Below are positions 20,383 through 46,304 of a stretch of 64,000 bases of DNA, one piece after another (positions within the stretch are counted from its first letter, which is position 1; each line of letters begins with the position of its first letter). The stretch is taken from positions 243,955 to 307,954 of the forward strand of contig NZ_JABSNM010000004.1 in the NCBI RefSeq assembly GCF_013294065.1. Direction: 5' to 3'. Source of the DNA: Sphaerotilus uruguayifluvii (lineage in GTDB: Bacteria; Pseudomonadota; Gammaproteobacteria; Burkholderiales; Burkholderiaceae_C). A program made the position numbers and the translations under genes. The notes beneath the pieces are model-generated. The model was not told where the DNA came from. It saw only the letters and a list, made by a program, of their open reading frames with translations, and did not search any database.

Positions 20383-20458
20383 TGGAGCGGGAAACGAGGC
20401 TCGAACTCGCGACCTCAACCTTGGCAAGGTTGCGCTCTACCAACTGAGCTATTCCCGC
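20383..20458 (-). tRNA. tRNA-Gly (GCC), copy 3 in transcript order
   Basis: The 76-base cloverleaf has acceptor GCGGGAA/TTCCCGC and D-loop AGCTCAGTTGGTAGAGC. The anticodon loop is TTGCCAA (anticodon GCC), the T arm is GTTCGAGCC, and CCA is encoded. It is identical to the copies at 20621-20696 and 20794-20869. Confidence 0.95.
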
Positions 20459-20483
20459 GTAACTGGCAATGACTTGTCGAAAC

Positions 20484-20572
20484 TGGTGCCCGGGACGGGA
20501 ATCGAACCCGTACGCCCCTTTCGAGGCGGCGGATTTTAAGTCCGCAGTGTCTACCAATTTCACCACCCGGGC
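20484..20572 (-). tRNA. tRNA-Leu (UAA)
   Basis: This 89-base class II tRNA has acceptor GCCCGGG/CCCGGGC, anticodon loop CTTAAAA (anticodon TAA), a long variable arm (GCCTCGAAAGGGGC), T loop GGTTCGATTCC and an encoded CCA. Confidence 0.95.
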
Positions 20573-20620
20573 CCGAAGCGAGAACCTTGATTCTTCATCT
20601 TCTGACACCAGACGAAATTC

Positions 20621-20696
20621 TGGAGCGGGAAACGAGGCTCGAACTCGCGACCTCAACCTTGGCAAGGTTGCGCTCTACCAACTGAGCTATTCCCGC
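20621..20696 (-). tRNA. tRNA-Gly (GCC), copy 2
   Basis: The same 76-base sequence as the other two copies, anticodon GCC in loop TTGCCAA, with encoded CCA. It lies between tRNA-Cys and tRNA-Leu in the same transcript. Confidence 0.95.
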
Positions 20697-20704
20697 ATCG
20701 ACTC

Positions 20705-20778
20705 TGGAGGCGCGGGGCGGAGTCGAACCGCCCTGGACGGATTTGCAATCCGCTGCATAACCGCTTTGCTACCGCGCC
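20705..20778 (-). tRNA. tRNA-Cys (GCA)
   Basis: The 74-base cloverleaf has acceptor GGCGCGG/CCGCGCC, anticodon loop TTGCAAA (anticodon GCA), T arm GGTTCGACTCC and encoded CCA with a U discriminator base, as expected for tRNA-Cys. Confidence 0.95.
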
Positions 20779-20793
20779 ACCGACATCAGGATC

Positions 20794-20869
20794 TGGAGCG
20801 GGAAACGAGGCTCGAACTCGCGACCTCAACCTTGGCAAGGTTGCGCTCTACCAACTGAGCTATTCCCGC
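20794..20869 (-). tRNA. tRNA-Gly (GCC), copy 1
   Basis: First tRNA of the cluster, 76 bases, anticodon GCC, encoded CCA. A sigma-70 promoter lies about 65 bp upstream at 20936-20965. Confidence 0.95.
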
Positions 20870-31576: not shown

Positions 31577-32404
31577 ATGTCCGTCGACCACTACGAGAAC
31601 TTTCCCGTCGCCTCGGTGCTGTGCCCGCCGGCGCTGCGCCCGGCGGTCATCGCGATCTACGGCTTCGCGCGCACCGCCGACGACCTCGCCGACGAGGGCG
31701 ACGCCACGCCCGAGCAGCGCGCCACCGATCTGGCCGCCTACCGCGAGGACCTGCGCCGCGTCGCGCACGGCCAGGATCCCTCGCCGCGCTGGGGCGCGGT
31801 CTTCCGGCCGCTGATGCCGGTCTTCCGGCGCCACCATCTGCCGCTGCCGCTGCTCGAAGCGCTGCTCGACGCCTTCGAGCAGGACCTGCACCAGAGCCGC
31901 TATGCCGACCGCGGCGAGCTGCTGCGCTACTGCGAGCGCTCGGCCAACCCGGTCGGGCGGCTGCTGCTGCACCTGTACGGCGTGCGCGACGACGCCTCGC
32001 TCACCCAGTCGGACGCGATCTGCACGGCGCTGCAGCTCATCAACTTCTGGCAGGACCTCAGCCGCGACCTGCCGCGCGACCGCCTCTACGTCCCGCTGGC
32101 CGACTGCGCGCGCTACCACGTCACGGTCGAGGCGCTGATGGCGCAGCGCGACACCGAGGCCACCCGCGCCCTCGTCGCCGACGAGGTGGCCTGGGCGCGC
32201 CGGCTGATGCTCGACGGCGCGCCGCTGGCCACGCGGCTGCCCGGACGCACCGGCTGGGAGCTGCGGCTGGTCGTGCAGGGCGGCCTGCGCATCCTCGACA
32301 AGATCGAGGCGATGCGCTGCGGCACGCTGGCGGCGCGGCCGCGGATCGGGGCGTGGGATGCGCCGCGGCTGCTGTGGCGGGCGGCGCGGATGCGGGTGAC
32401 CTGA
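31577..32404 (+). CDS. hpnC: HpnC, hydroxysqualene synthase
   Basis: HpnC (275 residues) is a trans-isoprenyl diphosphate synthase-like enzyme that converts presqualene diphosphate to hydroxysqualene in the HpnC-HpnD-HpnE route to squalene. It opens with the HpnC-type SVDHYENFPVASVLCPP. The two aspartate-rich motifs are FARTADDLADEGD near 34-46 and LINFWQDLSRDLPRDRLYVP near 155-174. HpnD and HpnE, its pathway partners and usual immediate neighbours, lie 13 kb downstream at 45462-47587, beyond an inserted island. Its stop is 30 bp from the stop of the convergent defence operon. Confidence 0.9.
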   Translation: MSVDHYENFPVASVLCPPALRPAVIAIYGFARTADDLADEGDATPEQRATDLAAYREDLRRVAHGQDPSPRWGAVFRPLMPVFRRHHLPLPLLEALLDAFEQDLHQSRYADRGELLRYCERSANPVGRLLLHLYGVRDDASLTQSDAICTALQLINFWQDLSRDLPRDRLYVPLADCARYHVTVEALMAQRDTEATRALVADEVAWARRLMLDGAPLATRLPGRTGWELRLVVQGGLRILDKIEAMRCGTLAARPRIGAWDAPRLLWRAARMRVT

Positions 32405-32434
32405 GCCAAGCACAGCGCCCGGTGAGACGACCTC

Positions 32435-34204
32435 TCACCAACACATAGCGAGGTGCCCGACATCCTCGAACGGACGACCTGTTTCCCCAGAGCGATACGC
32501 CGCAGAGCCGTTCCGCTTCTGCCAAGTCACCTCGTTCTTGCAGCCATGGCACGTTGCCTTGAACGCCATGTGCGACACCTCCCAGGCGGTCGATTCCGCT
32601 CCACAGACACGGCAGCGGTCCAGCAGTGCCAGACGCTCGATCGCCTGCTGCAGCGCATGCCGGGTCTGCTCATTGCATGAGCCTGCATTGATCGCCTGCA
32701 AGACCTCATCCCGCTCGGCTCCAGCCACCAAGGGGCGATCCATCACCCGGTCATTGCCGCTTGACCGCAAGGCTTTGGGGACATTGCGGACCACGAACGG
32801 ATAGCCCGCCAGCAGATGCCGCATCAGCCAGTGCTCGATGACCTGCTGCACCCGCTCGACTCCGTAGAACTGCAGCGGGTTGAGCACGGCATCGGCGCCC
32901 GGTTGCTCCGCCTTGCCCTCATCGGCATGGCTGAACACGACGTGCCGCTCCTCGCCTGCGATGCTCCCTGGCGCAAGGCACCATGGCTGTTTTCCTCGCC
33001 GAGCCGGCACGAACCGCAGACGCGGCATGGACACCCCTGGAAGGCTCGCCTCGACCAGCCAATCCAGCCCGTCTCGGTTCAGGGTCAACGGTCTGGGATG
33101 GTGTCGGCGGATCGCGTCCAGCGCATGCCGGATCAGCAAGCCCACCTGCTCGCTGTGCTCTTCACCCGCCTTGCGTGACTGCTCGAAACGCTCGGCAGGC
33201 GTGCGGGCCACCTGATCGAGATCGGCATGGGCCAGTTGCCACAGCGGGCGCAGATGCCGGTAGTGCGGATCGTGCCGCAGGATGTTGGTGCTGCGCAGCG
33301 TCAGCCCCGTGAATCCCAGCGATGCCACCTGCGCCACAGGACTGCGCTGCATCTGCAGGACCTTGCCAAGCTGGCGCTGGAGTGTCTGCAGCACCTGCTG
33401 CGCAGACTGGGTTTCATCGGCATCGAACGCCTGCCCCCAGAGGCGGCACAAGGCTTCGCGCAGCCGGTAGTCGAGGCGCTCAGCATTGCTCAGGCTCGCG
33501 GCTTCCTCGCGCTTGGCCAACAGTGCCGAGAGTTCACGAATGCGGTGCCGCAGCAACTGCGCGAGTCGATCGAGCAGGTGGGCGAACACCCGGTTCTCGT
33601 AGATCGCCAGTTCATCATCGCTGACCTCGGCCAGCAGCCGTGACGGCACCACGCCCGTGATCTCGCGTCGCGCCCAGTCTTCGGAATGCGCCGCGAGCCG
33701 CACCTGGGCACCCAAGGCCACCCTCCGCGCCCGGGACACCGGCACGAGCTCGGTGTCGTAGCGCATGTCCATGCGGGGGCGCTGGGCGATGGTCTGCAGA
33801 TGTCCGGCGATGAGCGTTTTCTCCAACTGAATTTCGAGCCGATTCATCTCGGCCAGATGCCCGAGCTGCGCGGGCATCACGGGAGAGAGCAAGGGCTGGT
33901 CGGCAGCACCCGCCTGCCACTCGCGCCACTGCTTCGCCACCGCCTTGATCGCCTCGTCGATCAGTGAGTCCGGTACCTGACCATCGGACTCAGGCGGAGA
34001 CTGCAAGAAATCGTGGAGAGACTCCTCCTCTGTCGCACCGGAAGACAACAGGCACCGGGCGCTTCCATCGCTCCACAGCACCTCACCGGCTTGGAGGTCG
34101 ATCGACCGATTCAGGCGGGCGGCCACCAGCAACCGGTATCGACCGGGCTCGACCTGCGAGGGCAAATCGGTTTCAGCGCCCGTGAAGCGATCGAACACCC
34201 TCAT
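32435..34204 (-). CDS. DUF2357-like protein with C-terminal zinc ribbon (McrB partner)
   Basis: This 589-residue protein is last in the seven-gene operon; its ATG overlaps the McrB-like gene by 4 bp, so the two are coupled. An all-beta N-terminus (RVFDRFTGAETDL, YRLLVAARL) is followed by a helical middle. That part contains DDELAIYENRVFAHLLDRL, with YENR at 202-205, the hallmark of DUF2357 proteins paired with McrB-like ATPases. A C-terminal zinc ribbon has C531, C534, C552 and C555 (CRVCG...CHGC). Related proteins often end in a PD-(D/E)XK nuclease fold, but I cannot find a convincing catalytic set here. A McrC-like partner or nucleic-acid sensor role is an inference. Confidence 0.65.
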   Translation of the reverse strand: MRVFDRFTGAETDLPSQVEPGRYRLLVAARLNRSIDLQAGEVLWSDGSARCLLSSGATEEESLHDFLQSPPESDGQVPDSLIDEAIKAVAKQWREWQAGAADQPLLSPVMPAQLGHLAEMNRLEIQLEKTLIAGHLQTIAQRPRMDMRYDTELVPVSRARRVALGAQVRLAAHSEDWARREITGVVPSRLLAEVSDDELAIYENRVFAHLLDRLAQLLRHRIRELSALLAKREEAASLSNAERLDYRLREALCRLWGQAFDADETQSAQQVLQTLQRQLGKVLQMQRSPVAQVASLGFTGLTLRSTNILRHDPHYRHLRPLWQLAHADLDQVARTPAERFEQSRKAGEEHSEQVGLLIRHALDAIRRHHPRPLTLNRDGLDWLVEASLPGVSMPRLRFVPARRGKQPWCLAPGSIAGEERHVVFSHADEGKAEQPGADAVLNPLQFYGVERVQQVIEHWLMRHLLAGYPFVVRNVPKALRSSGNDRVMDRPLVAGAERDEVLQAINAGSCNEQTRHALQQAIERLALLDRCRVCGAESTAWEVSHMAFKATCHGCKNEVTWQKRNGSAAYRSGETGRPFEDVGHLAMCW

Positions 34205-36642
34205 CCGCCACGCTCCAGACGCTGAATATCCCGGCGCAACGGTGTCAGACAGCGGATCGGCTCACCGTCAAGCTCGCAGTCTTCCCACATCTTCAGCAAA
34301 GCCTCTTCGACCTGCCGCAGGTCATCCGTCCCGACGTCGTGCCGTCCAATCACCTTGCCATCGCGGAACATCCGACTCGACAGGAGGTGGTCAACGGCCA
34401 AGGCCTCGCTCCCCCCTGCATCGATCACGACGGGCACGAACCGCATCATCTGGCGCTCCAGCCGGTTGCCCCAGCCAAGGCCGAACGTGCCAGCCAGGAG
34501 TCGGGTGAGTTCGCTGTCGTTGATGAATGCCATCAAGTCCACGATCTGAGGCGTCAATTCCCTGCAAACCACGTCAAACCGATCCACCAGACTCTGATGG
34601 CTCCAGGTCACGGGCTTCAGCCGACGCAGGCCAGACTCCGGCCTCTCTTGTCGCGGCAGCTCCAGCACGAACGCCCGGTCATGCGTCTTGTCCGCAAAGG
34701 CGTTCGTCGTCTCGTCGTGATTGGCGGTGCCGATGAACCACACGTTGGGCGTCAGCTTGATGTCGCGACCATCGCGCAAGTGCTTCGGTCCGCCCTGAGC
34801 CGGTCCAGACTCCATCAGGTTGATCCAGCGATCCGATTCACCCATTTCCATCGCCGACAGGAACTCGGCGAAATACTGCTCGGGGCGCGACAGGTTCATT
34901 TCATCGAGCAGCACGATGTGCAGTCGATCGCTGTCGGCTTCGGTCTGTGCCCGGTACAGCGCCTGCAGCGTGTTGCGCTCGTAGTAACGCTTCTCGAAGG
35001 CGTTGTAGTGCCCGATCAGGTCGGCGCGGTCACGCCAGCCGGCCTGGACCGGCACTGTCGTGCAGACGCCACCGACCGCCTTGGCAAAGGCGGTGGCCAG
35101 ACTGGTCTTGCCGGTGCCGCTGATGCCCTGGAAGACATGCAGCTGGCTCATCGCCAAGCCGCCAAGGAAGAGCTGCAGTTCCTCCTTGCGGAAGTAGAGC
35201 TGCTTGCCCTTCTCGGCGTGGGCGATGCGGCATTGCAGTTCATCGACCAGCTGGCTCAGCTTGTCCGGCACCGGATCGGTATGGACCCGCACGGTCAGCT
35301 CGGCGTCCATGCGCGTCAGCTCGGGGAAGACCGTCTTCTGCTGCTGGCGGTTGAGGAGGTCATCGACATCCTGCTGCAACTGGCTGACGGCCCCTTGCAG
35401 CAAGGCACGGTTCGTTTCCAGCACCTTGCGGGTCTTCTGCCAGTCCTCGCGCTCGGTGACGCTGCGCTGCCACTCGGACTGGCGACGGCGCAAGTCGAAC
35501 AGTTCCTGCTCGGCCTGTGTCAGCCTCTGCTGCAGGTCATCTCGCTGCAGACGCAACTGGCTGGCGTCCTCCTCGGCGCCTCCAGCCAGCAGTTCCTGCA
35601 CCTGCCGGTCCAGGTCACGGTTGCGCTGGCGCAGCGCGTCGAGCTCGTCGAAAAGGCGCTGCGGATCGTCGCCGATCCGATCACGCAGTTCGCCGAACTC
35701 ATCAAGTTCCTGCTGCAGCCGATCCGCATGCTCATGAGCCTTGTCGAGCCGGGATTGAAGCCGCTGCGACTGTCGCAGCGCCTCATCAAGCTCGCGCTGG
35801 CATTCCTCTCGGATCTCTTCGGTGAGCGAGCCGCGCCGGACACGCAGCAGTTCCTCGTTCATCGCCAGTTTCCGGTCACGGGTCTCCAGCGCCAGCTCAT
35901 GCGCGTTGATCTGCAGCTCACGCTCGTGCAGCACCGCCTCCTGCGCCTGCACACCCGCCTTGAGCGCCTCGACATCTTCACGCGCACGGTCCAGCAAGAC
36001 GGCGCGGTGCTGGACGATCTCGGCAGGCAGGCGGTCGCGGCGCTGCTCCAGTTCCTCGACCTGCTGGCGCAGCGTCTGCAACGACGCCTCCCGCTCCAGC
36101 ACGATCTGCCCGCGCAGCTCGGCCGCCTGACGTGTCAGCGCCTCCTGCTGCCGCACCACCGCCAGCCGCTGCTCGTCCAGGGTCTCGCGCTCGCCAGCCA
36201 GCGCAAGGCGAGCCGTTTCAAGCTCCGCCCGATCCTGTCGCTGTTGCGCTTGCTCGATGTCGAATGCCGCCCGATCAGCAGCCAGACGGGCCGACTCCTC
36301 GGACAGGCGACCTTGCAGCGTCTCCCGCTCGGCCTCCAGCGCACGCCCCGCGCTGACGCTGCGGTCGTGTGCATCCTTGAGACGAGTTCCCCAGGAAGCG
36401 AACTGCTCGACCCAGGCAGCGAATTGCTCATGCTCCGGCATCGACAAGGACGCCGCCCAGGTGCGGATCTGCGTCTCGTCCCATGCCGTGTCAGGCGGTG
36501 CCTCCGGCAACAACGGCGCGGTCTGCTCCCGCGTCGCAAACAGCTTGTTCAGCAAGCCACTGGGGCGCGTTGCTGATGCAGGACTCGCCGCCGTGCTGCC
36601 GGTCGGTCGGACAGGCGGCGCGGCTTTCTTGTGCTTCCCCAT
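34201..36642 (-). CDS. McrB-like AAA+ NTPase with long coiled coil
   Basis: This 813-residue protein has a short N-terminal region, then roughly 300 residues (about 75-410) of near-continuous charged coiled coil (repeated Glu/Arg/Gln/Leu heptads). The AAA+ domain of McrB type follows: Walker A GISGTGKT at 506-513, Walker B VLLDEMNLSRPEQYF with D580, and GTANHDETTNAF as the McrB-specific sensor region near 637. Classic McrB carries a DNA-reading domain in place of this coiled coil. Here the coiled coil may act as a spacer or oligomerisation arm, as in SMC-like defence ATPases. It starts 26 bp after the winged-helix gene and is coupled to the DUF2357-like gene. Confidence 0.8.
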   Translation of the reverse strand: MGKHKKAAPPVRPTGSTAASPASATRPSGLLNKLFATREQTAPLLPEAPPDTAWDETQIRTWAASLSMPEHEQFAAWVEQFASWGTRLKDAHDRSVSAGRALEAERETLQGRLSEESARLAADRAAFDIEQAQQRQDRAELETARLALAGERETLDEQRLAVVRQQEALTRQAAELRGQIVLEREASLQTLRQQVEELEQRRDRLPAEIVQHRAVLLDRAREDVEALKAGVQAQEAVLHERELQINAHELALETRDRKLAMNEELLRVRRGSLTEEIREECQRELDEALRQSQRLQSRLDKAHEHADRLQQELDEFGELRDRIGDDPQRLFDELDALRQRNRDLDRQVQELLAGGAEEDASQLRLQRDDLQQRLTQAEQELFDLRRRQSEWQRSVTEREDWQKTRKVLETNRALLQGAVSQLQQDVDDLLNRQQQKTVFPELTRMDAELTVRVHTDPVPDKLSQLVDELQCRIAHAEKGKQLYFRKEELQLFLGGLAMSQLHVFQGISGTGKTSLATAFAKAVGGVCTTVPVQAGWRDRADLIGHYNAFEKRYYERNTLQALYRAQTEADSDRLHIVLLDEMNLSRPEQYFAEFLSAMEMGESDRWINLMESGPAQGGPKHLRDGRDIKLTPNVWFIGTANHDETTNAFADKTHDRAFVLELPRQERPESGLRRLKPVTWSHQSLVDRFDVVCRELTPQIVDLMAFINDSELTRLLAGTFGLGWGNRLERQMMRFVPVVIDAGGSEALAVDHLLSSRMFRDGKVIGRHDVGTDDLRQVEEALLKMWEDCELDGEPIRCLTPLRRDIQRLERGG

Positions 36643-36668
36643 GGTCTTTGTGCTTTCAGATCCAGGAT

Positions 36669-38150
36669 TCAGAAATACGGAATGAACTGCTCATGCCACT
36701 CGACGGCGAAGTCCGCCATGTCGAGGCTGTGCTGGCGGTCAAGTCGCTGCCCGCTGGCGTGGCTGCCCTTGTTGCGCAGGTCGGTCAGCTCCAGCATCCG
36801 CACCCATTGCAGGGCGCGCGCCGGCAGTTGCCGCAGCGGGTGTGTATCGTGCTCCCGCGTACACAGCAATGCACCGACCCAGAGTGCCTTGAAGGGCCGG
36901 TCACGCCGCTCGATGGCCAGCCGGGTGTCCTTGAGCTTCTGGCCGGACAACACCGCCAGCACTTCGTCATCCAGCGGCGCTTGCAAAGGCAGCTCCCGCA
37001 GCAAGTCGCCAAGCACCCGCCGCGTCCATTCGGTTCGCGGCCAATCCCGCGTTTCGATCGGCCACCACTCCAGCATCCACTGCACCGTGGCTTCCATCAG
37101 GGCGCTGCATTCGGTCAGCAGGCTGTTCAGCTCTTCGTTCTGGACGCGCTCCTGGTGCAGCAAACGGTCCCGCTGACGGAGAACACGACCCATGTGCTCA
37201 CGCAGCTTGGTGTGCTCCGGCCGGTTCAGGTGCGGCATCGACGACAGATCCAGCTCGGTGCGGAGTTCCAACTGCGCAAGCCAATCGGCTGCACTCAGGG
37301 AACCCGTGTCCTCGTTGGGCATCAGCTTTTTGCGCATCCGCCCAGCCAGCTCCGGGAACTGGCCCAGGCTTTGCTGCAGCGGCTCACGCAGCCATTTCAC
37401 CGCTGGCACGAATCGCCACGGATCGCTGACCAGCCACGGCTGCGGATCATCGGGATTGACGTAGACCTCGCACCAGACATGCGCCAACTGCGTTCGCTGG
37501 AGATCGCCGCAGAACTCGATTTCATCGCTGACGAACTCCACATCGTCCGACAGCGTTTCGACCCGGCCCCCGGCTTGCGCAGCGGCGTGGTCACGGCGGT
37601 GCTGCTGCCACGCCTTCAGAACCTCTGCCAGATCGGCACGCGCTGGTGCTTTCACCGGCAACACGACGGGCCGCTCGATTCGACCGCTTCCTCGCTCCAG
37701 GAGAAATTCGAACTGGCCTTTCTCGTTCACGCCCTTGGGTTCGATTTCCGGCAGGTCCGCACTCAGACGCGGCCACCAGTGTCCGAACACGGCATCCTGA
37801 AACACATGCTGCTGGCTCAGGCGCGGCGTCCGGTGGTCATCACCGTCGAGCATCCTGGCCCCCTCCGGGGTCAGTCGCAGTCGCTGATCCAGCCATCCCG
37901 AGGGCTGGAGTTCCTTGGTCACGATGAAGCGGACCAGATCCCGATCGAGTTCCAGCAGCGTCGCCACCTCGGCGAGATCGCTCTTTCCAGCTCGCAGCAA
38001 GCCGAGGATGGCCGACTGGAACAGGTTAAGCGCAGGCACCTGATCCGGCGCGACGACCGGCCACACATGCACAGGCCACAACACCGCGACATGCGGCCGC
38101 TTCGACGGGCGTGACGTCGGCCAGCGCAGGAAAAGGTCAGGCGATTTCAT
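36669..38150 (-). CDS. Unrecognised protein with N-terminal winged helix and C-terminal HEPN-like RNxxxH motif
   Basis: I do not recognise this 493-residue protein as a whole. ATG 38150 overlaps the helicase stop as ATGA. Near residues 40-105, FQSAILGLLRAGKSDLAEVATLLELDRDLVRFIVTKEL...RLRLTPEGARML reads as a winged helix-turn-helix. The middle is Trp-rich (HVWCEVYVNPDDPQPWLVSDPWRFVP) and looks like a beta domain also seen in phospholipase-D-like or defence-linked proteins. A helical C-terminal part ends with LTDLRNKGSH; R459 to H464 fits the RNxxxH motif of HEPN ribonucleases, and a helix follows to the end. It is a possible effector or DNA-binding adaptor of the system. Confidence 0.6.
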   Translation of the reverse strand: MKSPDLFLRWPTSRPSKRPHVAVLWPVHVWPVVAPDQVPALNLFQSAILGLLRAGKSDLAEVATLLELDRDLVRFIVTKELQPSGWLDQRLRLTPEGARMLDGDDHRTPRLSQQHVFQDAVFGHWWPRLSADLPEIEPKGVNEKGQFEFLLERGSGRIERPVVLPVKAPARADLAEVLKAWQQHRRDHAAAQAGGRVETLSDDVEFVSDEIEFCGDLQRTQLAHVWCEVYVNPDDPQPWLVSDPWRFVPAVKWLREPLQQSLGQFPELAGRMRKKLMPNEDTGSLSAADWLAQLELRTELDLSSMPHLNRPEHTKLREHMGRVLRQRDRLLHQERVQNEELNSLLTECSALMEATVQWMLEWWPIETRDWPRTEWTRRVLGDLLRELPLQAPLDDEVLAVLSGQKLKDTRLAIERRDRPFKALWVGALLCTREHDTHPLRQLPARALQWVRMLELTDLRNKGSHASGQRLDRQHSLDMADFAVEWHEQFIPYF

Positions 38151-41100
38151 GGCGTCTCCCTGGCGTGCAGCCGCGCCTCGGCATCGCAGAAATCCAGGAA
38201 GGCGCACATCTCCGGCACGGCCTCGCGGGATGCCTCACCCTCGAACATCGCCCGATCGCCAACCGCGATCAGCAACCGGCGTTGGCGGCTCATCGCCACG
38301 TTGAGCCGGTTGGCCGTGCGCAAGTGGCCGTACTTGCGGCTCCAGACTCGCTCCTGGGCGCTGCGCCGCTGTTCAGTCTCGTCAGGCGTGCAGCCTTCAG
38401 ACAGGCTGGAGGCGGACAACGGCAGCGTGTTGCATCGGACGACAGACAGCACCACCACATCGAACTCCTTGCCCTGGAAGGCATCGACCGTGCCGACATG
38501 CAGGCGCTTCGGGAGCGAGCCACCCAGCGCAGCCAGAATCTCGTCACGCTGGGCGGCGTAGAAGGTGATGACCCCGATGCTCTTGTCCTCGGGCAGCTCC
38601 TTGAGCAGACGAGACACCTCGTGCGCCACCCGCCAGGCTTCGACCTGACGCCGACGGCTGGCGCCGGACCGGTCCTCCAGCCCCTTGACCTGCGGGACAT
38701 CGATCCAGGCACACACCGATGAGCCATGACCAGGCACCAGCCATTCAAAATCGCTCGCCGGCCGGCCTGAATGAACCTGACCGAGCCCTGCTCGTTCATA
38801 GAACTGCCGGCTCACGAAATCACCCAGCCGGGGGTGCATGCGGAACTGGGTGTCGAGCATCACGACCCGCGAGAAGCCATCCGCCGCCGCCCGCTGTTGA
38901 AGCTGTCGCCACAGCCGCTCGAACAGGCTGTCCCGGTAGACCTTGCTGCTGGCCTGGTCGCCACGCTCGGCACGAATCTCGTCCTCGATCTCGCTGTCGA
39001 GCAAGTGGGGCAATTGCCGGTGGTCGCCGACCAGGACGATGCGCCGCGACGCGAGCGCCATCGGCACGAGCAGGTCCAGCGGATTGGCCCGAGCGGCCTC
39101 GTCGATGATCACGCTGCCGAACTGCAGGCTCCTCATGGATGGAGCGTCCGGCTTGTCGGTCTTGAGCAGACTCATGTGACGGCTGGCCGCCTGCTGGCAG
39201 GTCGCGCCGACGATGCTGCTGTAGGCCTTCACGGCCCGATGCACCTGATCTGGGTAGGCACCCAGTGCATCCCGATAACGGATCAACACGCCGTGGACCC
39301 CATGGCGCGATTCGCGCACCTTGTCCGCCAGTTCGGTCTGCAGTCGCTGCAACAGGCCACGCGCCTGATCATCCAGCCGATGGCGCTGCACGACGGGGCA
39401 CCAGTCGGGCCGCAAGCGGTCGATCAGCGCATCGCGCAGGCTGGACAAGGCTTCCAGCAGTGCGGCATCAGGCAATCTGTCCGCATCGCTCGCCTGGAGC
39501 AGCAGCGCCTCATCCGCCGCGGTCATCAGTCCGGCCTCGTGGCGCAGCAGACCGCGCACCTTGTGTGCCTGGGCCGGACCGTCATCTTCAAAGGCCACGG
39601 CCTGACAGCGCAGCGCCCTCACCCGCCTCAGCAGCATCCTGCGGCGTGCAGGCGACAGCGACTGCGCCACCTGCGCCGGCGCCGGCGGCTGCTCCCGATA
39701 GTTGCCCCAGTCGGACTGCCACGCGGCGCCGGGCCGTATGCGCAGACGGCCGAGTGCTCTGAGGCAGTCATCCAGGTCATCCAGTGCCCGTTGACGCTCC
39801 CCAGGCTCCACGCCCAGCAGAAGCAATCGGTGCACCTGCCGATCCAGCTCCACCAGCAGGGGTGCCGAAGGGTCGGATTGCTCCATCTGCTGCACTCGGG
39901 CGGACATCGCCTGTTCCTTGCGCTCACGCCATGCACTCACCGGATCGAACTCGTCACGACGGCGAGCCGACCCGCCCACCTTGACCGCAGGCAGGCCATA
40001 GACCTCGGTACGCTCCAGCGCGTTTTCCACCGCGTCGTGCTGGAAACTCGACACCAGCACATCGTGCGCGATGAGCTGCCCCTCGTTGAGTTCGGACAGG
40101 CGCCGTTCCAGCGCGGCGATCACCTGGGTCTTGCCTGTCCCGGGCGGGCCGATGATCAGCGCAATGTCCGGGGTGTTCAGGGCCACTCGAACCGCCTCTT
40201 CCTGCCTTGTGGTCGGTCTGCCACTGCGGAAGCTCTGGCGTGCATACGGCGTCAGGGCGGTCAGTGTCGAGGGCCGCTGGGTCGGCGTCGGCACATCCTG
40301 AAGCAACGCCCGCAGCGTCTTCACGCCTGCACCCGAATCGATGGCCCGCCGCGCACTCAGACGCCGCTCATGCTGGGTCCGATGGCCTGCCAACGACAGA
40401 TACATGTGACCACTCGGGGGCGGCGGCTTCCTCGACTCTCCTTTCACGACAAGGCCGTCACGCAACCACTGCGGCTCGCCTCGAAAGATCCGACGCCGAT
40501 CGCGGTGCTCCAGGTCGGTGTAGTAATCGCTGTTCCAGTCCGGCGCCTCGTCATCCAGCTCGACTTGATCATCGTCAGACGCCAATTTCTTCCAACGATC
40601 ACGAAACGTATTCAACGCATCCGTCTGAACCGTCAGGCGCCATCCCCCACCTTCATCGCTGGCGGGCACGCACGCGGTGTAGGACAACGACTGTAACTCG
40701 GCGGCCCGCGTGACTTCGCGCACCCACTCCTTCTGGCCGTAGAGGCTCCACAGTTCCAGATAGGTACCAAACGACGTGACCGCCGTGTCCAGCAGGAGTC
40801 GCTGGGATGGCTCCTGCGGCTGAACCCCGGCGCTGGCGTCGACGAACCGAACCGCACCCGTCATGACGATGCAGGCATCGTCCTCGCTCGCCGGGCGCTT
40901 CGCCGTGCGCTCGACCCAGAACACCTGCTGGTCATCGCGCTTCAGGTCGAGTCGAAAGCGCCGTCCGATCAGTTGCATCGCCCGGACGTCACCCCGCTCC
41001 CGAGGACACACGAACACGCGGCCCAGTGCCTCATCGCCCGCCACCGGGCAGACAAACTCATCGGTCAGCCACTCCACCGCCGAGGCGACGACCGGCTGGT

Positions 41101-41479
41101 CGATGCGCATCTGCTGGTGCAGGCTGTCCGCCACCCGCTGATCGACACCAATCTCGAATGCCGATTCAGACGAGACGGCCTGCATCGGCACCAGGCAGTG
41201 CAAACCGACCCTCGCCGACTTGGCACCCTGGCCTCTGGCCTGGGCCAGCACCCACAGCACGTCAAGGTTCTGGGCATGCAGCAGCAGCGATCCGGCATCA
41301 GGCGCTGGTTCGATTTCGGCGATCCGGTCATCCTGCCGCAGCAATAGCCTGCCGCCACCCTCGGCGGAACGCACCACAACTTCGCTCGAGGTCTGCCATG
41401 TCTTCGCATCGAAATCACGACCGATGACGTGGGCGCCGTGGATGCCTCGGGACAACAGGGGCGATTCATGGAGCTGCAT
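38147..41479 (-). CDS. Large SF1 helicase of the DNA2/UPF1 type
   Basis: This 1110-residue protein carries the complete superfamily 1 motif set in its C-terminal two thirds. Walker A is [12 protein letters not shown] (444-451). A long helical insert follows, then DEAA in VIIDEAARANP (793-796), motif III VLVGDHRQLPHLLD, motif IV DTQFRMHPRLGDFVS, motif V GTVDAFQGKEFDVVVLSVVR and motif VI NRLNVAMSRQRRLLIAVGD. The ~430-residue N-terminal region is mostly beta and unassigned. No RecB-type nuclease is evident. ATG 41479 has GGGAG upstream and starts 15 bp after the kinase stop. It is probably the nucleic-acid translocase of the island system. Confidence 0.85.
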   Translation of the reverse strand: MQLHESPLLSRGIHGAHVIGRDFDAKTWQTSSEVVVRSAEGGGRLLLRQDDRIAEIEPAPDAGSLLLHAQNLDVLWVLAQARGQGAKSARVGLHCLVPMQAVSSESAFEIGVDQRVADSLHQQMRIDQPVVASAVEWLTDEFVCPVAGDEALGRVFVCPRERGDVRAMQLIGRRFRLDLKRDDQQVFWVERTAKRPASEDDACIVMTGAVRFVDASAGVQPQEPSQRLLLDTAVTSFGTYLELWSLYGQKEWVREVTRAAELQSLSYTACVPASDEGGGWRLTVQTDALNTFRDRWKKLASDDDQVELDDEAPDWNSDYYTDLEHRDRRRIFRGEPQWLRDGLVVKGESRKPPPPSGHMYLSLAGHRTQHERRLSARRAIDSGAGVKTLRALLQDVPTPTQRPSTLTALTPYARQSFRSGRPTTRQEEAVRVALNTPDIALIIGPPGTGKTQVIAALERRLSELNEGQLIAHDVLVSSFQHDAVENALERTEVYGLPAVKVGGSARRRDEFDPVSAWRERKEQAMSARVQQMEQSDPSAPLLVELDRQVHRLLLLGVEPGERQRALDDLDDCLRALGRLRIRPGAAWQSDWGNYREQPPAPAQVAQSLSPARRRMLLRRVRALRCQAVAFEDDGPAQAHKVRGLLRHEAGLMTAADEALLLQASDADRLPDAALLEALSSLRDALIDRLRPDWCPVVQRHRLDDQARGLLQRLQTELADKVRESRHGVHGVLIRYRDALGAYPDQVHRAVKAYSSIVGATCQQAASRHMSLLKTDKPDAPSMRSLQFGSVIIDEAARANPLDLLVPMALASRRIVLVGDHRQLPHLLDSEIEDEIRAERGDQASSKVYRDSLFERLWRQLQQRAAADGFSRVVMLDTQFRMHPRLGDFVSRQFYERAGLGQVHSGRPASDFEWLVPGHGSSVCAWIDVPQVKGLEDRSGASRRRQVEAWRVAHEVSRLLKELPEDKSIGVITFYAAQRDEILAALGGSLPKRLHVGTVDAFQGKEFDVVVLSVVRCNTLPLSASSLSEGCTPDETEQRRSAQERVWSRKYGHLRTANRLNVAMSRQRRLLIAVGDRAMFEGEASREAVPEMCAFLDFCDAEARLHARETP

Positions 41480-41494
41480 GTCGATCTCCCTGCC

Positions 41495-42925
41495 TCACCA
41501 CTTGAAACGCCACACGTCGTGGGTTCGATCGCCAGTGCCCAGATGGAGGACATGGGCCACACCGCGCCTGGGCAACTGCACACGCCCTCGCAGTGGCAGC
41601 AACCGGGTACTCCCCGATGTCTGCAGAGAGACCTGATGCCCGTGTTCGACTTGGATCGCCAGATCGTCCCCTGCGACCCACAGGGACATCACGGAGTCGC
41701 TTTCAGCGTGACAAGCCGTGCCTGGAGGCGCTGCACGCAACGCGACCGGCTCACTGGCCACGGTCTGAACATGCCCTGTCATGATCCAGCAGTTTTTCGG
41801 GTCGGCCAGTTCCCCCAATTCCGCCGGAGCGGCAAAGACCGAATGAACCAAACGCAGCACGCTCCCTGCCGGCTGGGCCGTGTCGCAGAAAGGACAGCAC
41901 AGGTCCCGGTTCCACAGGAACGTGCTGCCACAGCCATCGTGCTCGGTGTCGCACAGCACCTGCATCGCAACCGCTGCCTCGAACGCCTCGGCCCACTCCG
42001 CCATCAATGGCCGCTCACCCGCAGCGAGAACACCGAGCCGGAAACATCGGTCAAACAGATCACGCAGGACGGGTGTGCAGACCAGCTCTCTCGGTATCCC
42101 GAGGCTGGCCCGATTCGACTCGTCCTCGGGATGGTCGACCCACGGCAGTTCACCGCGCAGTGCGGGCTCTTCACGCTCGCTGTCCTGATCCACCAGATCG
42201 CCACTCTTGAAGGGATGCAGCACCGTAAGCAACTGGAAGGCCATGACGGCAAAGCTCCAGATGTCGGTGTACGTGCTGATGCCGCGCTCGCCGCACAACA
42301 GCTCAGGCGCGCCGTAATCCGGGGTGTAGAGCTGCAAGCTGCTGTCCCGGACGGCGTAGGTCAGGTTGTCGCAGTCGATCAGCCAGACTTCTGCGTGCTC
42401 GTGCGACTCGGAGACGAACACGTTCTTGGGCGAGAGATCGCCATGCGCAATGCCCAGTCCGTGCAGCCTGGCCATGACCCGCGCCAACCGAGCCAACAGG
42501 CGCAGACGACGGCGCAGGCCGCCTGACGCCAGATAGCCGCTCAGCCCCTCCCCGTCCAGAAACGCCTGCTGGGCCTGCGTGAGCAGTTGCTCCAACGGCA
42601 CCAGACCATCCATCAGCTCCATCACGTAGCCCGCCCGAGGCTTGACGATCAAGGCCTTGGGCATCGCGATCGGCAGGTCGTTCTCGGTGATGGGCAGGCG
42701 ATGCACCTGCTCGATCTGGCGCTTCCAGTCGATAGACCTGGGATCCGTGCCGGGCCATCTGCTGACCTTGACCAACAAGCGGGCATCAGCTTTCGTCGTG
42801 ACGACAATCCCTTGCCCACCCTCGGCCAACTTCTTGCCCAGTTCATGAACGTGGCCTCGGTCATCCTGGACACGCTGACCCTCGCCCGGCACCTTCTCCG
42901 GCCGGGCATGCGCTGTCGGTTTCAT
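41495..42925 (-). CDS. TerY-P triad serine/threonine protein kinase with zinc-binding tail
   Basis: This 476-residue soluble kinase has a glycine-loop-like LAEGGQGIVV, a VAIK-like LLVKV lysine, catalytic loop HGDLSPKNVF (HGD at 161-163) and metal-binding LIDCDNL in place of DFG. YGAPEL replaces the APE motif. After the kinase domain (about 30-310) a cysteine/histidine cluster (CDTEHDGCGSTF...CCPFCDTAQ, about 320-355) can form a zinc ribbon, followed by a beta-rich C-terminus that may be an FHA-like module. The kinase lies 4 bp after the PP2C gene. Such kinases form the TerY-P triad with PP2C and the vWA protein. Substrates are unknown; the helicase and McrB-like neighbours are candidates. Confidence 0.85.
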   Translation of the reverse strand: MKPTAHARPEKVPGEGQRVQDDRGHVHELGKKLAEGGQGIVVTTKADARLLVKVSRWPGTDPRSIDWKRQIEQVHRLPITENDLPIAMPKALIVKPRAGYVMELMDGLVPLEQLLTQAQQAFLDGEGLSGYLASGGLRRRLRLLARLARVMARLHGLGIAHGDLSPKNVFVSESHEHAEVWLIDCDNLTYAVRDSSLQLYTPDYGAPELLCGERGISTYTDIWSFAVMAFQLLTVLHPFKSGDLVDQDSEREEPALRGELPWVDHPEDESNRASLGIPRELVCTPVLRDLFDRCFRLGVLAAGERPLMAEWAEAFEAAVAMQVLCDTEHDGCGSTFLWNRDLCCPFCDTAQPAGSVLRLVHSVFAAPAELGELADPKNCWIMTGHVQTVASEPVALRAAPPGTACHAESDSVMSLWVAGDDLAIQVEHGHQVSLQTSGSTRLLPLRGRVQLPRRGVAHVLHLGTGDRTHDVWRFKW

Positions 42926-42929
42926 CTCA

Positions 42930-43637
42930 TCACTCCCTGAACACCATCGCCACGGTCTTGTCGTCCGAGTGCAGTGGCGTGGCCCAATGGGTCAATTCAT
43001 GCGTCAACCAGCGTCGCGCCTGCCGGCGGCTGCGCTGCTGGATCTGCCGGTGGACGACCTGCGTGAAACCGTCCAGCGACGCTGCAGCCAGATCGTCCGA
43101 CACGCCATCGGTCATCAGCAGCACCAGATCCCCCGGCTCGCGCAGCGTGAAACTCGCCGTGTGCCAGTCAGACCATGCCCGGTGCGTGCCCAAGGCGCGG
43201 GTCTGGTTGCCGAAGCCGGGACGGTCCGGCGTGATCACCTGCACCCGCCCTCCGAGCCGGCACAGCACCATTCCGTCACCGAGCTGCCACACCCGGGCAC
43301 GTCCCTCGGCATCGCACACCAGCCACAGCAGCGTGGTCGCGGCACAGGACTTGTCCTGCCATGGCACCAGCGCCAGCCACCGCCGATACAGATCGGTGGC
43401 GCACTGGCGAGCAGGCAGTTCCTGCCAGGATGCAGGCGACCACTGGCGAGCGATCTGCTGCGCGGCCCGCACCGCCAGCCGGGAACCTGTTGCACTGCGT
43501 GCGCGGGAACCCAGTCCATCCGCCACCGCAACAATCCAGCCCCCGCGCCATCCCCGCAAGGCCAACGCATCCTGACCTGGCTGGAACGTCTGCAGATGGG
43601 CCGGCCCCGTCACGCAGGCGCCTGCCGCACGCAGCAT
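42930..43637 (-). CDS. PP2C-family protein phosphatase (TerY-P triad)
   Basis: This 235-residue phosphatase has the PP2C metal-site motifs GGWIVAVADGLGSRARSATGS near 33-52 and LVLLMTDGVSDDL near 175-187, plus the central ATTLLWLVCD strand. It lacks a membrane anchor, so it acts in the cytoplasm. Its ATG touches the terY stop codon (TAAATG) and its stop is 4 bp from the kinase start, so the three triad genes are translated as a block. It probably reverses phosphorylation by the neighbouring kinase. Confidence 0.9.
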   Translation of the reverse strand: MLRAAGACVTGPAHLQTFQPGQDALALRGWRGGWIVAVADGLGSRARSATGSRLAVRAAQQIARQWSPASWQELPARQCATDLYRRWLALVPWQDKSCAATTLLWLVCDAEGRARVWQLGDGMVLCRLGGRVQVITPDRPGFGNQTRALGTHRAWSDWHTASFTLREPGDLVLLMTDGVSDDLAAASLDGFTQVVHRQIQQRSRRQARRWLTHELTHWATPLHSDDKTVAMVFRE

Positions 43638-44444
43638 TTACAGCGCGTCCAGGTCCAGATCGTCGTCCGGCGGCACCATGCCCAGATCAAGTCCGACCGA
43701 CTGATCGGGTGTTGCGCTTGCCGACCTGGACGCCACGCTCATCGTCACCGCACGGAAGAAACGCACGATGTCGCGAGCATCATGTGCATCGAACAGCGTC
43801 GCCTCAGGGCCATTGGGAAACTGCTTCAGCATCTCGCGATCGGCATCGGCGCCGATCGCCATCGCGAAGCGGGACGCCTTGCTGCCGCGCTCGCTGCTGC
43901 ACAAGGCCTGTAGCGGCTGCTCCCAGTCATCCGTCGGTGCCCCGTCGGACACGAGCACCAGCACGGGTCGGTAAGCGCGCGACGGGATGCGCTCCTTGTC
44001 TTCGAGCAAGCGGCGAGCCAGATCGAACGCCTTGCCCATCGGGGTCGGACCACTGGCCGCCAGCGGTTTCATGGCCGTGACCTCATGGGCCGCGACGAGC
44101 GGCAGATGCTCCTCCGCCGCCCTGCCGCCAAACGTGATCAGTCCGACCTGAATCTCCGCTCTCAGACGCGACTCCTTCGCGAAGCTGCTGACCATGTCCC
44201 GCAGAGCCACGTTCAGCAACTCGATCTTGTTGCCCTCGACCATGCTGCCGCTGACATCGGCCAGGACGATGACAGGCAGCGGCCTGGGTTGTGGTGCGGC
44301 AAACGATTTCAGCTTGGTCACCGCCGGTGTGGCCTTGGCCGGATGCGCAGAGGCCGGCATCAGGGCGTCATGCTCTTTTCTCCGAACGATGGTGGCGTTG
44401 TGATGCCGACTCTCGTTGTCCTCGTTGTAGCTGCCCCATCCCAT
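43638..44444 (-). CDS. terY: TerY-like von Willebrand factor A domain protein
   Basis: This 268-residue protein has a vWA domain with an intact metal-ion-dependent adhesion site: DVSGSM at 63-68, a threonine in GPTPMGKAFDLA and VSDGAPTDDW. ATG 44444 is chosen for its strong upstream AGGGAGAAATC. The N-terminal 50 residues are polar and rich in His, Asn and Arg; the C-terminus is an acidic tail (PPDDDLDLDAL). With the next two genes it forms the TerY-phosphorylation triad known from ter stress systems and tested as an anti-phage module. It is first in the seven-gene operon and may be a phosphorylation-controlled scaffold. Confidence 0.9.
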   Translation of the reverse strand: MGWGSYNEDNESRHHNATIVRRKEHDALMPASAHPAKATPAVTKLKSFAAPQPRPLPVIVLADVSGSMVEGNKIELLNVALRDMVSSFAKESRLRAEIQVGLITFGGRAAEEHLPLVAAHEVTAMKPLAASGPTPMGKAFDLARRLLEDKERIPSRAYRPVLVLVSDGAPTDDWEQPLQALCSSERGSKASRFAMAIGADADREMLKQFPNGPEATLFDAHDARDIVRFFRAVTMSVASRSASATPDQSVGLDLGMVPPDDDLDLDAL

Positions 44445-44456
44445 GATTTCTCCCTG

Positions 44457-44477
44457 TTGATACGAAAAGACTATCAA
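44457..44477. promoter_or_regulatory. Inverted repeat just upstream of terY
   Basis: TTGATA and TATCAA, spaced by 9 bases, form a perfect inverted repeat 13 bp upstream of the terY start, beside the ribosome-binding site. It could be an operator that controls the island operon. No regulator gene is in the island. Confidence 0.35.
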
Positions 44478-44603
44478 AACAGGCGCATATCGTTCATTCA
44501 GAAACCTCGAAGAACGGATGGAACAAGAACAAAGACCCTGGCCCCGTGAAATCTGATGCGCGCAACCGGGTCAGTGACTGGAGCCGATTCGCTGAGAGCG
44601 TGT

Positions 44604-45113
44604 TCACGATCTCCTGAGGAGCAAGGCCAGAAAGGCGAGATGGACGAACTGCAGGCTGGTGTTGAGCCAGCGCTCGCAGTTCTTCCACAGGCGTCGGTTC
44701 TTCTCCAGCCAGGCGAAGCTGCGCTCGACGATCCAGCGCTGGGGCATGACCGCAAAGGTGTGCAGTTCGCTGCGCCGGGCCACCTCCACCGTCACCCGCT
44801 CGCCCAGGATCTCGCGCACGCCGTGCTCGAACGGTCGACCCACATAGCCGCCATCGAAGAGCACCCGGCGCACCCCCGCCAGGGCCGCCTTGCCGTGCTC
44901 GAGCGCCTGCAGCGCTCCCTTGCGATCGGTGACCTCGGCCGTGGTCACCGCCACCGCATGCGGCCAGCCCTGCGTGTCGACCACGATGTGGCGCTTGATC
45001 CCCGAGACCTTCTTGCCCGCGTCATAGCCCTTGAACCCGGCCGTGTCCGCGTTCTTCACGCTCTGCGCGTCCACGATCAACAGCGTCGGCGTGGCGCTGC
45101 GCCCCTGTCTCAC
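44604..45113 (-). CDS. IS5-family transposase, C-terminal frame (orfB)
   Basis: This frame holds the DDE catalytic core: first Asp in LLIVDAQSVKNA, second in RVLFDGGYVG, and Glu in the RWIVERSFAWLEKNRRLWKN signature. It is expressed by frame change from orfA rather than from its own start; the frame is already open upstream of the GTG at 45113 (NQVGAARV) back to a TAA inside the A tract. It ends 8 bp from the left terminal repeat end. Joined to orfA by dropping one base it gives a single protein of 266 residues. Confidence 0.85.
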   Translation of the reverse strand: MRQGRSATPTLLIVDAQSVKNADTAGFKGYDAGKKVSGIKRHIVVDTQGWPHAVAVTTAEVTDRKGALQALEHGKAALAGVRRVLFDGGYVGRPFEHGVREILGERVTVEVARRSELHTFAVMPQRWIVERSFAWLEKNRRLWKNCERWLNTSLQFVHLAFLALLLRRS

Positions 45114-45405
45114 GCGGGCCGCGCCAACCTGATTTTTTTAAAGCCCGCTCCAGCGTGCTCACACCCTCCGCATCGGGCTCGCTCCACTTGCGCCACCACG
45201 CGTAGACCGTGCTCCACTTCGGAAAATCCGCCGGCAGGAAGCGCCACTGGCAGCCCGTGCGCAGCAGGTACAGCACGGCGCAGAACACCTCGTACAGGTC
45301 CACCGTCGTCGGCTTGGTGCGCCGGCGCACTCCCCTCAGCAGCGGCTCGATCTCCGCAAACCGCTCTCGGCTGATGTCACTCGCGTAGACTTTTCTCTTC
45401 GGCAT
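45022..45405 (-). CDS. IS5-family transposase, N-terminal frame (orfA)
   Basis: It starts MPKRKVYASDISRERFAEIEPLL, the N-terminal DUF4096-like part of IS5-family transposases, and contains LLRTGCQWRFLPADFPKWSTVYAWWRKW. Real homology ends at the run of seven A (45133-45139), where a +1 frame change (or RNA polymerase slippage losing one A) joins orfB; a -1 change would meet a TGA soon after. The remaining 40 codons to the stop are out-of-frame tail. The ATG lies 39 bases inside the element end. Confidence 0.85.
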   Translation of the reverse strand: MPKRKVYASDISRERFAEIEPLLRGVRRRTKPTTVDLYEVFCAVLYLLRTGCQWRFLPADFPKWSTVYAWWRKWSEPDAEGVSTLERALKKSGWRGPRETGAQRHADAVDRGRAEREERGHGRVQGL

Positions 45406-45461
45406 CCCCGCATTTTCAGGGCAGTCGGGATCGTGAACACGCTCTGAGACAATCGCCCCCC

Positions 45462-46304
45462 ATGACCACCTCCCCCGAGCACTACGTCCAAGAGAAGGCG
45501 GCCGGCAGCGGCTCGAGCTTCTACTACGCCTTCCTCTTCCTGCCGCCGGAGCGCCGCGCGGCGATCACCGCGTTCTACGCCTTCTGCCGCGAGGTCGACG
45601 ACGTGGTCGACGAGACCAGCGACGCGGGCGTGGCCGCCACCAAGCTGGCGTGGTGGCGCACCGAGGTGCAGCGCGCCTTCTCGGGCGAGCCGACGCATCC
45701 GGTCATGAAGGCGCTGATGCCGCACGTCACGCTCTACCAGATCACGCCGGCGCACCTGCTGGCCGTCATCGAGGGCTGCGAGATGGACCTGCAGCAGAGC
45801 CGCTACCTCGACTATCCCGGCCTGAAGCGCTACTGCCATCTGGTGGCGGGCATCGTCGGCGAGGTCGCCGCGCGCATCTTCGGCCAGACCGAGGCCGCCA
45901 CCACCGCCTACGCGCACCAGATGGGCCTGGCCTTCCAGCTCACCAACATCATCCGCGACGTCGGCGACGATGCGCGGCGCGGCCGCATCTACCTGCCGAT
46001 CGACGAGCTCAAGCAGTTCGACGTCAAGGCGCACGAGATCCTCAACCGCGGCTACAGCGAGCGCTTCACCGCGCTGATGAAGTTCCAGGCCGAGCGCGCC
46101 CACCAGGCCTACGACCAGGCGCTGGCGCTGCTGCCCGCGGCCGACGCGCGCGCGCAGAAGCCCGGCCTGATGATGGCCAACATCTACCGCACGCTGCTGC
46201 GCGAGATCGAGGCGGCCGAGTTCCAGGTGCTGCACCAGCGCATCTCGCTGACGCCGGTCAGGAAGCTCTGGATCGCGATGAAGACCAACTGGCGCGGCCG
46301 GTGA
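45462..46304 (+). CDS. hpnD: HpnD, presqualene diphosphate synthase
   Basis: HpnD (280 residues) condenses two farnesyl diphosphates to presqualene diphosphate. The aspartate-rich motifs are FYAFCREVDDVVDETSD near 35-50 and FQLTNIIRDVGDDARRGRIYLP near 160-182. The N-terminal HYVQEKAAGSGSSFYYAFLFLPPERR is typical of HpnD. The ATG lies only 17 bp after the IS end and lacks a clear ribosome-binding site, so the natural promoter or the link to hpnC has been lost or replaced. It overlaps hpnE by 4 bp. Confidence 0.93.
   Translation: MTTSPEHYVQEKAAGSGSSFYYAFLFLPPERRAAITAFYAFCREVDDVVDETSDAGVAATKLAWWRTEVQRAFSGEPTHPVMKALMPHVTLYQITPAHLLAVIEGCEMDLQQSRYLDYPGLKRYCHLVAGIVGEVAARIFGQTEAATTAYAHQMGLAFQLTNIIRDVGDDARRGRIYLPIDELKQFDVKAHEILNRGYSERFTALMKFQAERAHQAYDQALALLPAADARAQKPGLMMANIYRTLLREIEAAEFQVLHQRISLTPVRKLWIAMKTNWRGR

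Follow-up and report, generated by a model that had tools for sequence, protein, structure and literature searches.

A Type II CoCoNuT with a TerY-P triad lies between the hopanoid genes hpnC and hpnD of Sphaerotilus uruguayifluvii

Introduction

The locus described here raises two related questions: (i) what is encoded by a run of seven minus-strand genes lying between two hopanoid genes of Sphaerotilus uruguayifluvii; and (ii) how the activity of such a large cassette might be controlled. The genes occupy positions 32435-44444, a span of 12,010 bp, in a 64,000-nucleotide stretch of contig NZ_JABSNM010000004.1 (assembly GCF_013294065.1, positions 243,955 to 307,954), which we refer to as the window. 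A first-pass annotation, made from the letters of the window alone, had proposed that the seven genes form one composite defence operon, and had considered that this exact set might be undescribed. The first part of the proposal is borne out; the second is withdrawn. Together the genes make up a Type II CoCoNuT with a TerY-P triad, a kind of defence system described by Bell et al. (2024, eLife, PMC11090510). A false claim of novelty is thereby removed and an unannotated operon is tied to a named system. The cassette is real and ordinary in kind, and what is specific to this copy or its relatives is modest: the insertion between hpnC and hpnD, an insertion sequence (IS), a missing regulator, sigma-54-type boxes in relatives, and a beta-rich domain in the kinase.

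Results

The gene set

From the 5′ end, the operon consists of genes for a TerY-like vWA protein, a PP2C phosphatase, a kinase with a zinc ribbon, CnuH, CnuE, CnuB and CnuC (Table 1), with successive spacings of 0, 4, 15, −4, 26 and −4 bp. Open reading frames, spacing and domain searches all agree with the tight packing and gene order that had been reported in the first-pass annotation. The gene coordinates given there also stand, with one correction: the winged-helix/HEPN gene (cnuE) is listed from GTG 38207, but aligned relatives begin near ATG 38150, and the start was moved to that codon, so that cnuE and the helicase gene overlap by 4 bp. For the vWA gene there are two possible starts, ATG 44444, which was kept, and TTG 44477. 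All seven frames are open, and the catalytic motifs that were checked are intact.

In the accessible text of Bell et al. (PMC11090510), Type II CoCoNuT comprises CnuH, CnuE (a winged helix and one HEPN domain), CnuB (a coiled-coil McrB homologue with an NxD motif) and CnuC (DUF2357, an inactive nuclease and a zinc ribbon), and it very often carries the TerY-P triad of vWA protein, PP2C and kinase-zinc ribbon. The triad, which is very frequent in Type II but not part of its core, is present here with the kinase-zinc ribbon form. The name CoCoNuT has been used by further authors (PMC12447246, as far as its available text goes). In the available part of a 2025 study, a "CoCoNut Type II" picked from clinical Pseudomonas aeruginosa was cloned into PAO1, and every tested system except JukAB, hence Type II CoCoNuT included, resisted at least one phage (PMC12735699).

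Effector proteins

In CnuH, about 340 residues separate Walker A (444-451) from Walker B (791-796), and AAA_11 is matched in two stretches; a large insertion after Walker A is expected of a Type II CoCoNuT helicase. Walker A and motif VI, (N/C)VAMSRQR, are each kept in 32/32 copies. The CnuH profile also aligns over its full length with one Type III-A-like CnuH (L054).

CnuE, at 493 aa, has a single HEPN-like region, whose motif R478-N-K-G-S-H483 (RxxxxH) is invariant in the alignment. Its winged helix lies at residues 56-127 (P0003 numbering); PF24409 scores 25.9 bits, just below the cut-off of 27. The predicted structure contains a winged helix and a HEPN-like fold; when it was compared with the PDB by Foldseek, the top row was Csm6, at a non-significant E of 0.42. 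A viral origin was considered and rejected: no relatives of CnuE were found in phage records, and in viral contigs none of 51 pattern matches was confirmed.

The GTPase motif of CnuB is of the NxD type (GTA-N-H-D-ETT, 638-646) in 28/28 aligned copies, a count in which one copy cut by a contig end is excluded or included as aligned. The long helical region at its N-terminus may be a coiled coil: SMC-like and coiled-coil profiles match it, all weakly, and residues 91-440 contain 3 prolines and 51% D/E/K/R/Q, but show no peak at a periodicity of 3.5 residues.

CnuC itself (589 aa, P0001) is matched by no Pfam model. Some of its relatives are named DUF2357, and one (P0171, 35% identity over 79%) passes PF09823 with 24.9 bits against a cut-off of 23.3. 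The C-terminal zinc ribbon is formed by CxxC pairs at 531-534 and 552-555; C534, C552 and C555 are kept in 27/27 copies, and the first cysteine, C531, is not kept in all. Between residues 340 and 529 the aligned copies have no D...(D/E)xK and no column with lysine in at least 60% of them, and the sole acidic column kept in all copies is E450. Judged from this alignment, the PD-(D/E)xK residues of CnuC are lost, and no nuclease can be recognised in the cassette other than the HEPN domain of CnuE. RNA is therefore the predicted target, which is also the target that Bell et al. argue for in the accessible text (PMC11090510). The statement in the first-pass annotation that McrB-type NTPases drive restriction is not directly transferable to this operon for the same reason.

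The signalling triad

The motifs of the metal-ion-dependent adhesion site (MIDAS) in the vWA protein are intact in 30/30 aligned copies, and the PP2C metal-site motifs DG / GD / (T/S)DG / DD in 26/26. The PADLOC models STK_OB and TerY score weakly in the triad (E 0.0014 and 0.021). The zinc ribbon of the kinase contains four cysteines (C325, C332, C344 and C347) and is followed by a beta-rich domain (residues 355-476; window 41495-41863) that is modelled with high confidence and ends in W-x-F-x-W in most aligned Type II copies. A profile search of PDB sequences with this domain gave nothing below E 0.058, and a Pfam search with 11 members gave no convincing match. In two structure searches with the kinase model, the 50 rows listed by each were kinases. 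The modelled strand order had suggested an FHA-like sandwich, a candidate fold for which these searches gave no convincing sequence match.

Distribution

When 84,980 species genomes were scanned by pattern with a CnuE alignment of 55 rows, 31 loci in other species were obtained. The check suggested in the first-pass annotation was whether the triad and the four downstream genes occur mostly apart; they do not, since all seven genes, in the same order and on the same strand, are found in 23 of the 31 loci. Some of these are near copies of each other; the recurrence nevertheless argues that the operon is not a chance arrangement. Given the starts chosen in the analysis, gaps in the 23 complete loci range between −92 and 42 bp. 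Four further loci are cut by contig ends, namely L009 (six genes, CnuB cut), L023 (five), L018 (three) and L022 (two). Four actinobacterial loci have six genes; phmmer did not find a PP2C in them, and a profile search of two of the four likewise found none.

The operon recurs in several phyla, and within the order of the window's host Type II CoCoNuT looks rare. At E <= 1e-8, and with at most two candidates scored per genome, 11 of 399 genomes from that order have a CnuB-like protein, and the one in the window is alone in exceeding 95 bits. At E <= 1e-20, the vWA protein is present in 4 genomes, including that of the window. Among 60 close relatives, CnuE was matched in two, the window's own genome and G004, a genome of the same genus. 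The G004 operon (L054/L098) has an equal gene order and looks like Type III-A, because its CnuE is longer and its McrC homologue is 1365 aa; an RtcR-like regulator lies a few kilobases upstream of it.

By annotation, the seven genes are also present on two plasmids, a conjugative one of Polaromonas with ZorA nearby and a mobilizable one of Rhodoferax; a third plasmid match, in Pseudanabaena, has 23.5% identity. In a CnuH tree of 36 rows, the window copy falls within Type II, with Polaromonas and Paucibacter nearest. The same tree contains near-identical proteins from Desulfovibrionaceae, Comamonadaceae and Rhodocyclaceae. The CnuH proteins of L012, L013, L014 and L017 are nearly identical across Nitratidesulfovibrio, Azospira, a metagenome-assembled genome of Burkholderiales, and Comamonas, which suggests recent transfer between phyla.

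The RtcR-like regulator and promoters

Searches with the regulators of the Polaromonas and Rhodoferax plasmids showed that both plasmid operons, and 17 of the 31 loci, have an RtcR-like gene upstream of the gene for the vWA protein. The Polaromonas regulator corresponds to PADLOC RtcR_PspF2 (CARF-AAA-HTH, 1.3e-190). Fifteen of the 17 matches begin at or before residue 7 and so include the CARF part, the one in L012 being in two adjacent frames; the match in L023 is cut by the contig, and that in L024 is weak (127 bits, from residue 74 or 82). The upstream sequence of L007, L018 and L022 is too short to judge. A DUF4258/BrnT-like gene, also mentioned by Bell et al. in the accessible text (PMC11090510), is likewise common upstream in relatives.

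Neither an RtcR-like gene nor a DUF4258/BrnT-like gene was found in the flank of the window operon. Elsewhere in the genome there are 12 matches to the Polaromonas regulator, all from residue 168 or later, corresponding to the sigma-54 activator part, and none covers the CARF part (1-167). PF06956 gave 0 matches in this genome, although that model barely detects such regulators. Without such a gene, the window copy would be controlled post-translationally or by another promoter.

Fifteen of the 19 RtcR-bearing loci have a sigma-54-type word of at least 9/12 in the 93-320 nt that separate the regulator gene from the operon, and 10 of the 19 have one of at least 10; L024 and L027-L029 bear the regulator with no such word. 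Within 320 nt upstream of 12 RtcR-less operons, the window's included, a word of at least 9/12 is found in two (L004 and L026), both of which keep a BrnT-like gene. The members of one group of near relatives, which do not count as independent cases, have the word 51-52 nt ahead of the vWA start. Boxes of the −24/−12 type (TGGCACG-N4-TTGCT and variants) lie at or just past the end of the RtcR-like gene in L010, L012-L015, L017, L019, L020 and L100. Such boxes, which are not mentioned in the accessible text of PMC11090510, support the published idea of RtcR-driven CoCoNuT transcription. In the window, the best sigma-54-like word within 320 nt upstream scores 8/12, lies inside the IS, and is equalled in 0.21 of shuffles; there is no sigma-70-like or terminator-like hit at 44430-44620.

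When the presence of the regulator is placed on the CnuH tree, 6 changes are needed, 4 of them forced by supported branches. This count leaves out L007, whose contig begins too near upstream to tell; if L007 is counted as RtcR-less, there are 7 changes, 5 forced. The regulator was thus lost or gained repeatedly.

The insertion between hpnC and hpnD

In the window, hpnC and hpnD are separated by 13,057 bp (32405-45461), made up of the seven genes and an IS5-like element; hpnC, hpnD and the following hpnE are all on the plus strand, opposite to the cassette. HpnC was matched in 12 of 13 genomes of the genus that were searched, the window's among them. Of the eleven others, nine were fetched, and in 9/9 the distance from the hpnC stop to the hpnD start is −4 to 74 bp. 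The HpnC and HpnD matches are about 110 bp apart in G001 and G007; G004, a genome 83% complete, has no HpnC match. The adjacency of the two genes in relatives indicates that the cassette is an insertion between hopanoid genes. The 13 kb that split hpnC from hpnD-hpnE carry genes on the opposite strand, which may affect the contribution of hpnD and hpnE to hopanoid synthesis in this strain.

The IS5-like element, at the 5′ side of the cassette, has a transposase in two frames and inverted repeats AGAGCGTGTTCACGATC. One more complete copy (98%) exists in the genome, along with numerous fragments, mostly at contig ends; the right end of the window (63906-64000) is itself a contig end inside another copy. 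The GC content of the cassette (0.64-0.675) is lower than that at 46-62 kb (0.71-0.79), but it was not counted as evidence for insertion because 20-26 kb is equally low.

Table 1. Features of the cassette and its flanks (window positions)
Feature	Position	Strand	Support
TerY-like vWA protein	43638..44444	-	Pfam VWA E 3.7e-12; MIDAS DVSGSM / T / SDG
PP2C-type protein phosphatase	42930..43637	-	Pfam PP2C_2 E 4.8e-40
Ser/Thr kinase + zinc ribbon + C-terminal beta-rich domain	41495..42925	-	Pfam protein kinase 2e-13
CnuH, UPF1-like superfamily 1 (SF1) helicase	38147..41479	-	Pfam AAA_12 7.3e-39, AAA_11
CnuE, winged helix + one C-terminal HEPN	36669..38150	-	PF24409 25.9 bits; RxxxxH
CnuB, helical region + McrB-like AAA+ GTPase	34201..36642	-	PADLOC PDC-M26A 1.1e-40; AAA_5
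CnuC, DUF2357-family McrC homologue + zinc ribbon	32435..34204	-	DUF2357 relatives; two CxxC
5′ leader of operon	44445..44594		RtcR-like gene absent upstream; neither a sigma-54 box of at least 9/12 nor a sigma-70-like hit
IS5-like insertion sequence, between operon and hpnD	44595..45445		Pfam DDE_Tnp_1 4.7e-28, DUF4096 3.6e-20
hpnC, left flank	31577..32404	+	NCBIfam HpnC 325 bits, cut-off 250
hpnD, right flank	45462..46304	+	NCBIfam HpnD 387 bits, cut-off 279

Other features of the window and genome

Five tRNA genes lie on the minus strand at 20383-20869, three for Gly-GCC, one for Leu-TAA and one for Cys. On contig 22 of the same genome (L089, 6646-16008), a second UPF1-like helicase of 1324 aa precedes two further proteins, the first with a PIN domain at its C-terminus and the next ClpB-like (AAA_2), with PADLOC matches to PDC-M37B / DolB; this is possibly another helicase-nuclease defence locus.

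Discussion

How the cassette might work

We consider it reasonably probable, at about two chances in three, that the cassette acts as a Type II CoCoNuT in which the helicase CnuH and the HEPN RNase CnuE are gated by the CnuB-CnuC GTPase pair and are likely switched by the TerY-P triad. In such a scheme, the complex would read a signal of infection, which might be aberrant or ribosome-bound RNA that CnuH encounters. The kinase with its zinc ribbon would phosphorylate a component and the PP2C would reset it, with the vWA protein as scaffold, forming a putative phospho-switch. GTP hydrolysis by a CnuB ring might then bring the complex to its active state, and CnuE would cut RNA, so that phage growth stops, presumably at a cost to the cell. 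The defence is thus probably RNA-degrading and abortive. In more than half of the relatives examined, the RtcR-like CARF/sigma-54 activator would add a transcriptional switch; for the window copy, the triad or another promoter would have to provide control.

Because several lineages, including that of the window, have no upstream RtcR-like gene, the kinase/phosphatase triad might suffice. This leads to a more specific idea, which we hold tentatively and regard as rather doubtful: that the window copy is a Type II CoCoNuT freed of transcriptional control, the RtcR/CARF-sigma-54 switch having been shed more than once in the family, that the triad turns the helicase-HEPN complex on and off by itself, and that the beta-sandwich after the kinase zinc ribbon is the infection sensor. 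If this were true, RtcR-less copies would allow the post-translational switch of CoCoNuT to be studied apart from the transcriptional one. More generally, the sigma-54 boxes and the RtcR-less copies are relevant to the question of how cells that are not infected keep a large RNA-degrading defence inactive.

Other explanations

The juxtaposition of a McrB-like AAA+ protein and a DUF2357-family partner, with a 4-bp overlap of their genes, invites a reading as canonical Type IV (McrBC-like) DNA restriction, in which CnuB and CnuC would translocate on and cut modified phage DNA and the other five genes would only regulate. We think this improbable, since NxD replaces NxxD in every aligned copy, CnuC has no conserved D...(D/E)xK, and the conserved nuclease signature is the HEPN-type motif. 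Another known defence system that combines a helicase and a kinase is Mokosh type I, made up of a kinase-helicase fusion, MkoA, and MkoB. That the cassette is a Mokosh-type system with extra genes is hardly credible, even though PADLOC MkoA matches the helicase (7e-86) and, by its N-terminal part, the kinase (3.7e-14), and MkoB matches CnuE (2.6e-6). Kinase and helicase are separate genes here, and the MkoA scores of helicases outside CoCoNuT are similar or higher (L089 326 bits, L094 280, window CnuH 283); moreover, the full-length MkoA-like protein L090 receives 83 bits from the CnuH profile and no match from the kinase profile at E 1e-3.

It is also conceivable, and in our view quite unlikely, that the operon serves a stress or metal response, with the triad sensing metals or damage, the helicase and McrBC parts processing the cell's own RNA or DNA, and phage defence being incidental. 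TerY-P triads have been tied to tellurite resistance and hypothesised to be metal-sensing switches (Anantharaman 2012, as cited in the accessible text of PMC11090510), both the kinase and CnuC have zinc ribbons, and the RtcR-like regulators of relatives may, by analogy, respond to RNA damage. Set against these points are the defence neighbour ZorA on the Polaromonas plasmid, the patchy distribution and transfer between phyla, and the phage protection reported for a Type II CoCoNuT in the available part of PMC12735699; a second role would be compatible with all three. The main alternative for this particular copy, although still an unlikely one, is that it is a silent, non-working passenger, inserted into the hpn operon, lacking an RtcR regulator and capped by an IS. 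The IS directly upstream, the leader with neither a sigma-54 nor a sigma-70 hit, and the lack of an RtcR-like gene nearby or of any match in the genome covering the CARF part would fit such a passenger. However, the seven frames are open with the checked catalytic motifs intact, and other copies with no RtcR upstream exist in several lineages. A working Type II CoCoNuT with its triad remains the reading that we prefer.

Comparison with known systems

Canonical McrBC shares with the cassette a McrB-like AAA+ protein and a DUF2357-family protein, and the window differs in having NxD rather than NxxD, no conserved PD-(D/E)xK, and five further genes. Mokosh type I likewise has a UPF1-like helicase, a kinase and a partner with a weak match in the winged-helix region, but there kinase and helicase are fused, whereas in the window they are separate genes. 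The available text of literature naming both CoCoNuT and Mokosh draws no link between them. The notion that Mokosh I is a fused kinase-CnuH, suggested by the span of the MkoA model over kinase and helicase, was rejected: the second helicase of this genome, outside CoCoNuT, scores higher than CnuH (326 vs 283 bits), and with a full-length MkoA-like protein the CnuH profile gives a weak match and the kinase profile none.

Stand-alone TerY-P (Gao et al. 2020, as cited in the accessible text of PMC11090510) has the same vWA, PP2C and kinase triad; its kinase bears an OB fold, and the window kinase has a zinc ribbon (325-347) and then a beta-rich domain (357-476) with no convincing sequence match. 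The Type III-A CoCoNuT of G004, a label assigned from sizes, gene order and tree, has vWA, PP2C, kinase, CnuH, CnuE and CnuB in equal order. Its CnuE frame, however, is 745 aa, its 1365-aa McrC homologue contains DUF2357, and its CnuH branches apart (100/99), the Type III-A-like rows forming a separate tree group. The features of Type III-A, a McrC homologue fused to Hsp70-like and HEAT parts and two HEPN domains, are not those of the window copy.

The closest match is Type II CoCoNuT itself. The window copy departs from it in having no upstream RtcR-like CARF regulator or DUF4258/BrnT-like gene, in its place of insertion, where hpnC and hpnD flank it and an IS lies at the 5′ end, and in the beta-rich domain after the kinase zinc ribbon, which the accessible text of PMC11090510 does not mention. 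It agrees with it in the gene set, the NxD motif of CnuB, the winged helix-HEPN architecture of CnuE with a single HEPN, the C-terminal zinc ribbon of the kinase, and a DUF2357/zinc-ribbon CnuC in which the nuclease residues are not conserved.

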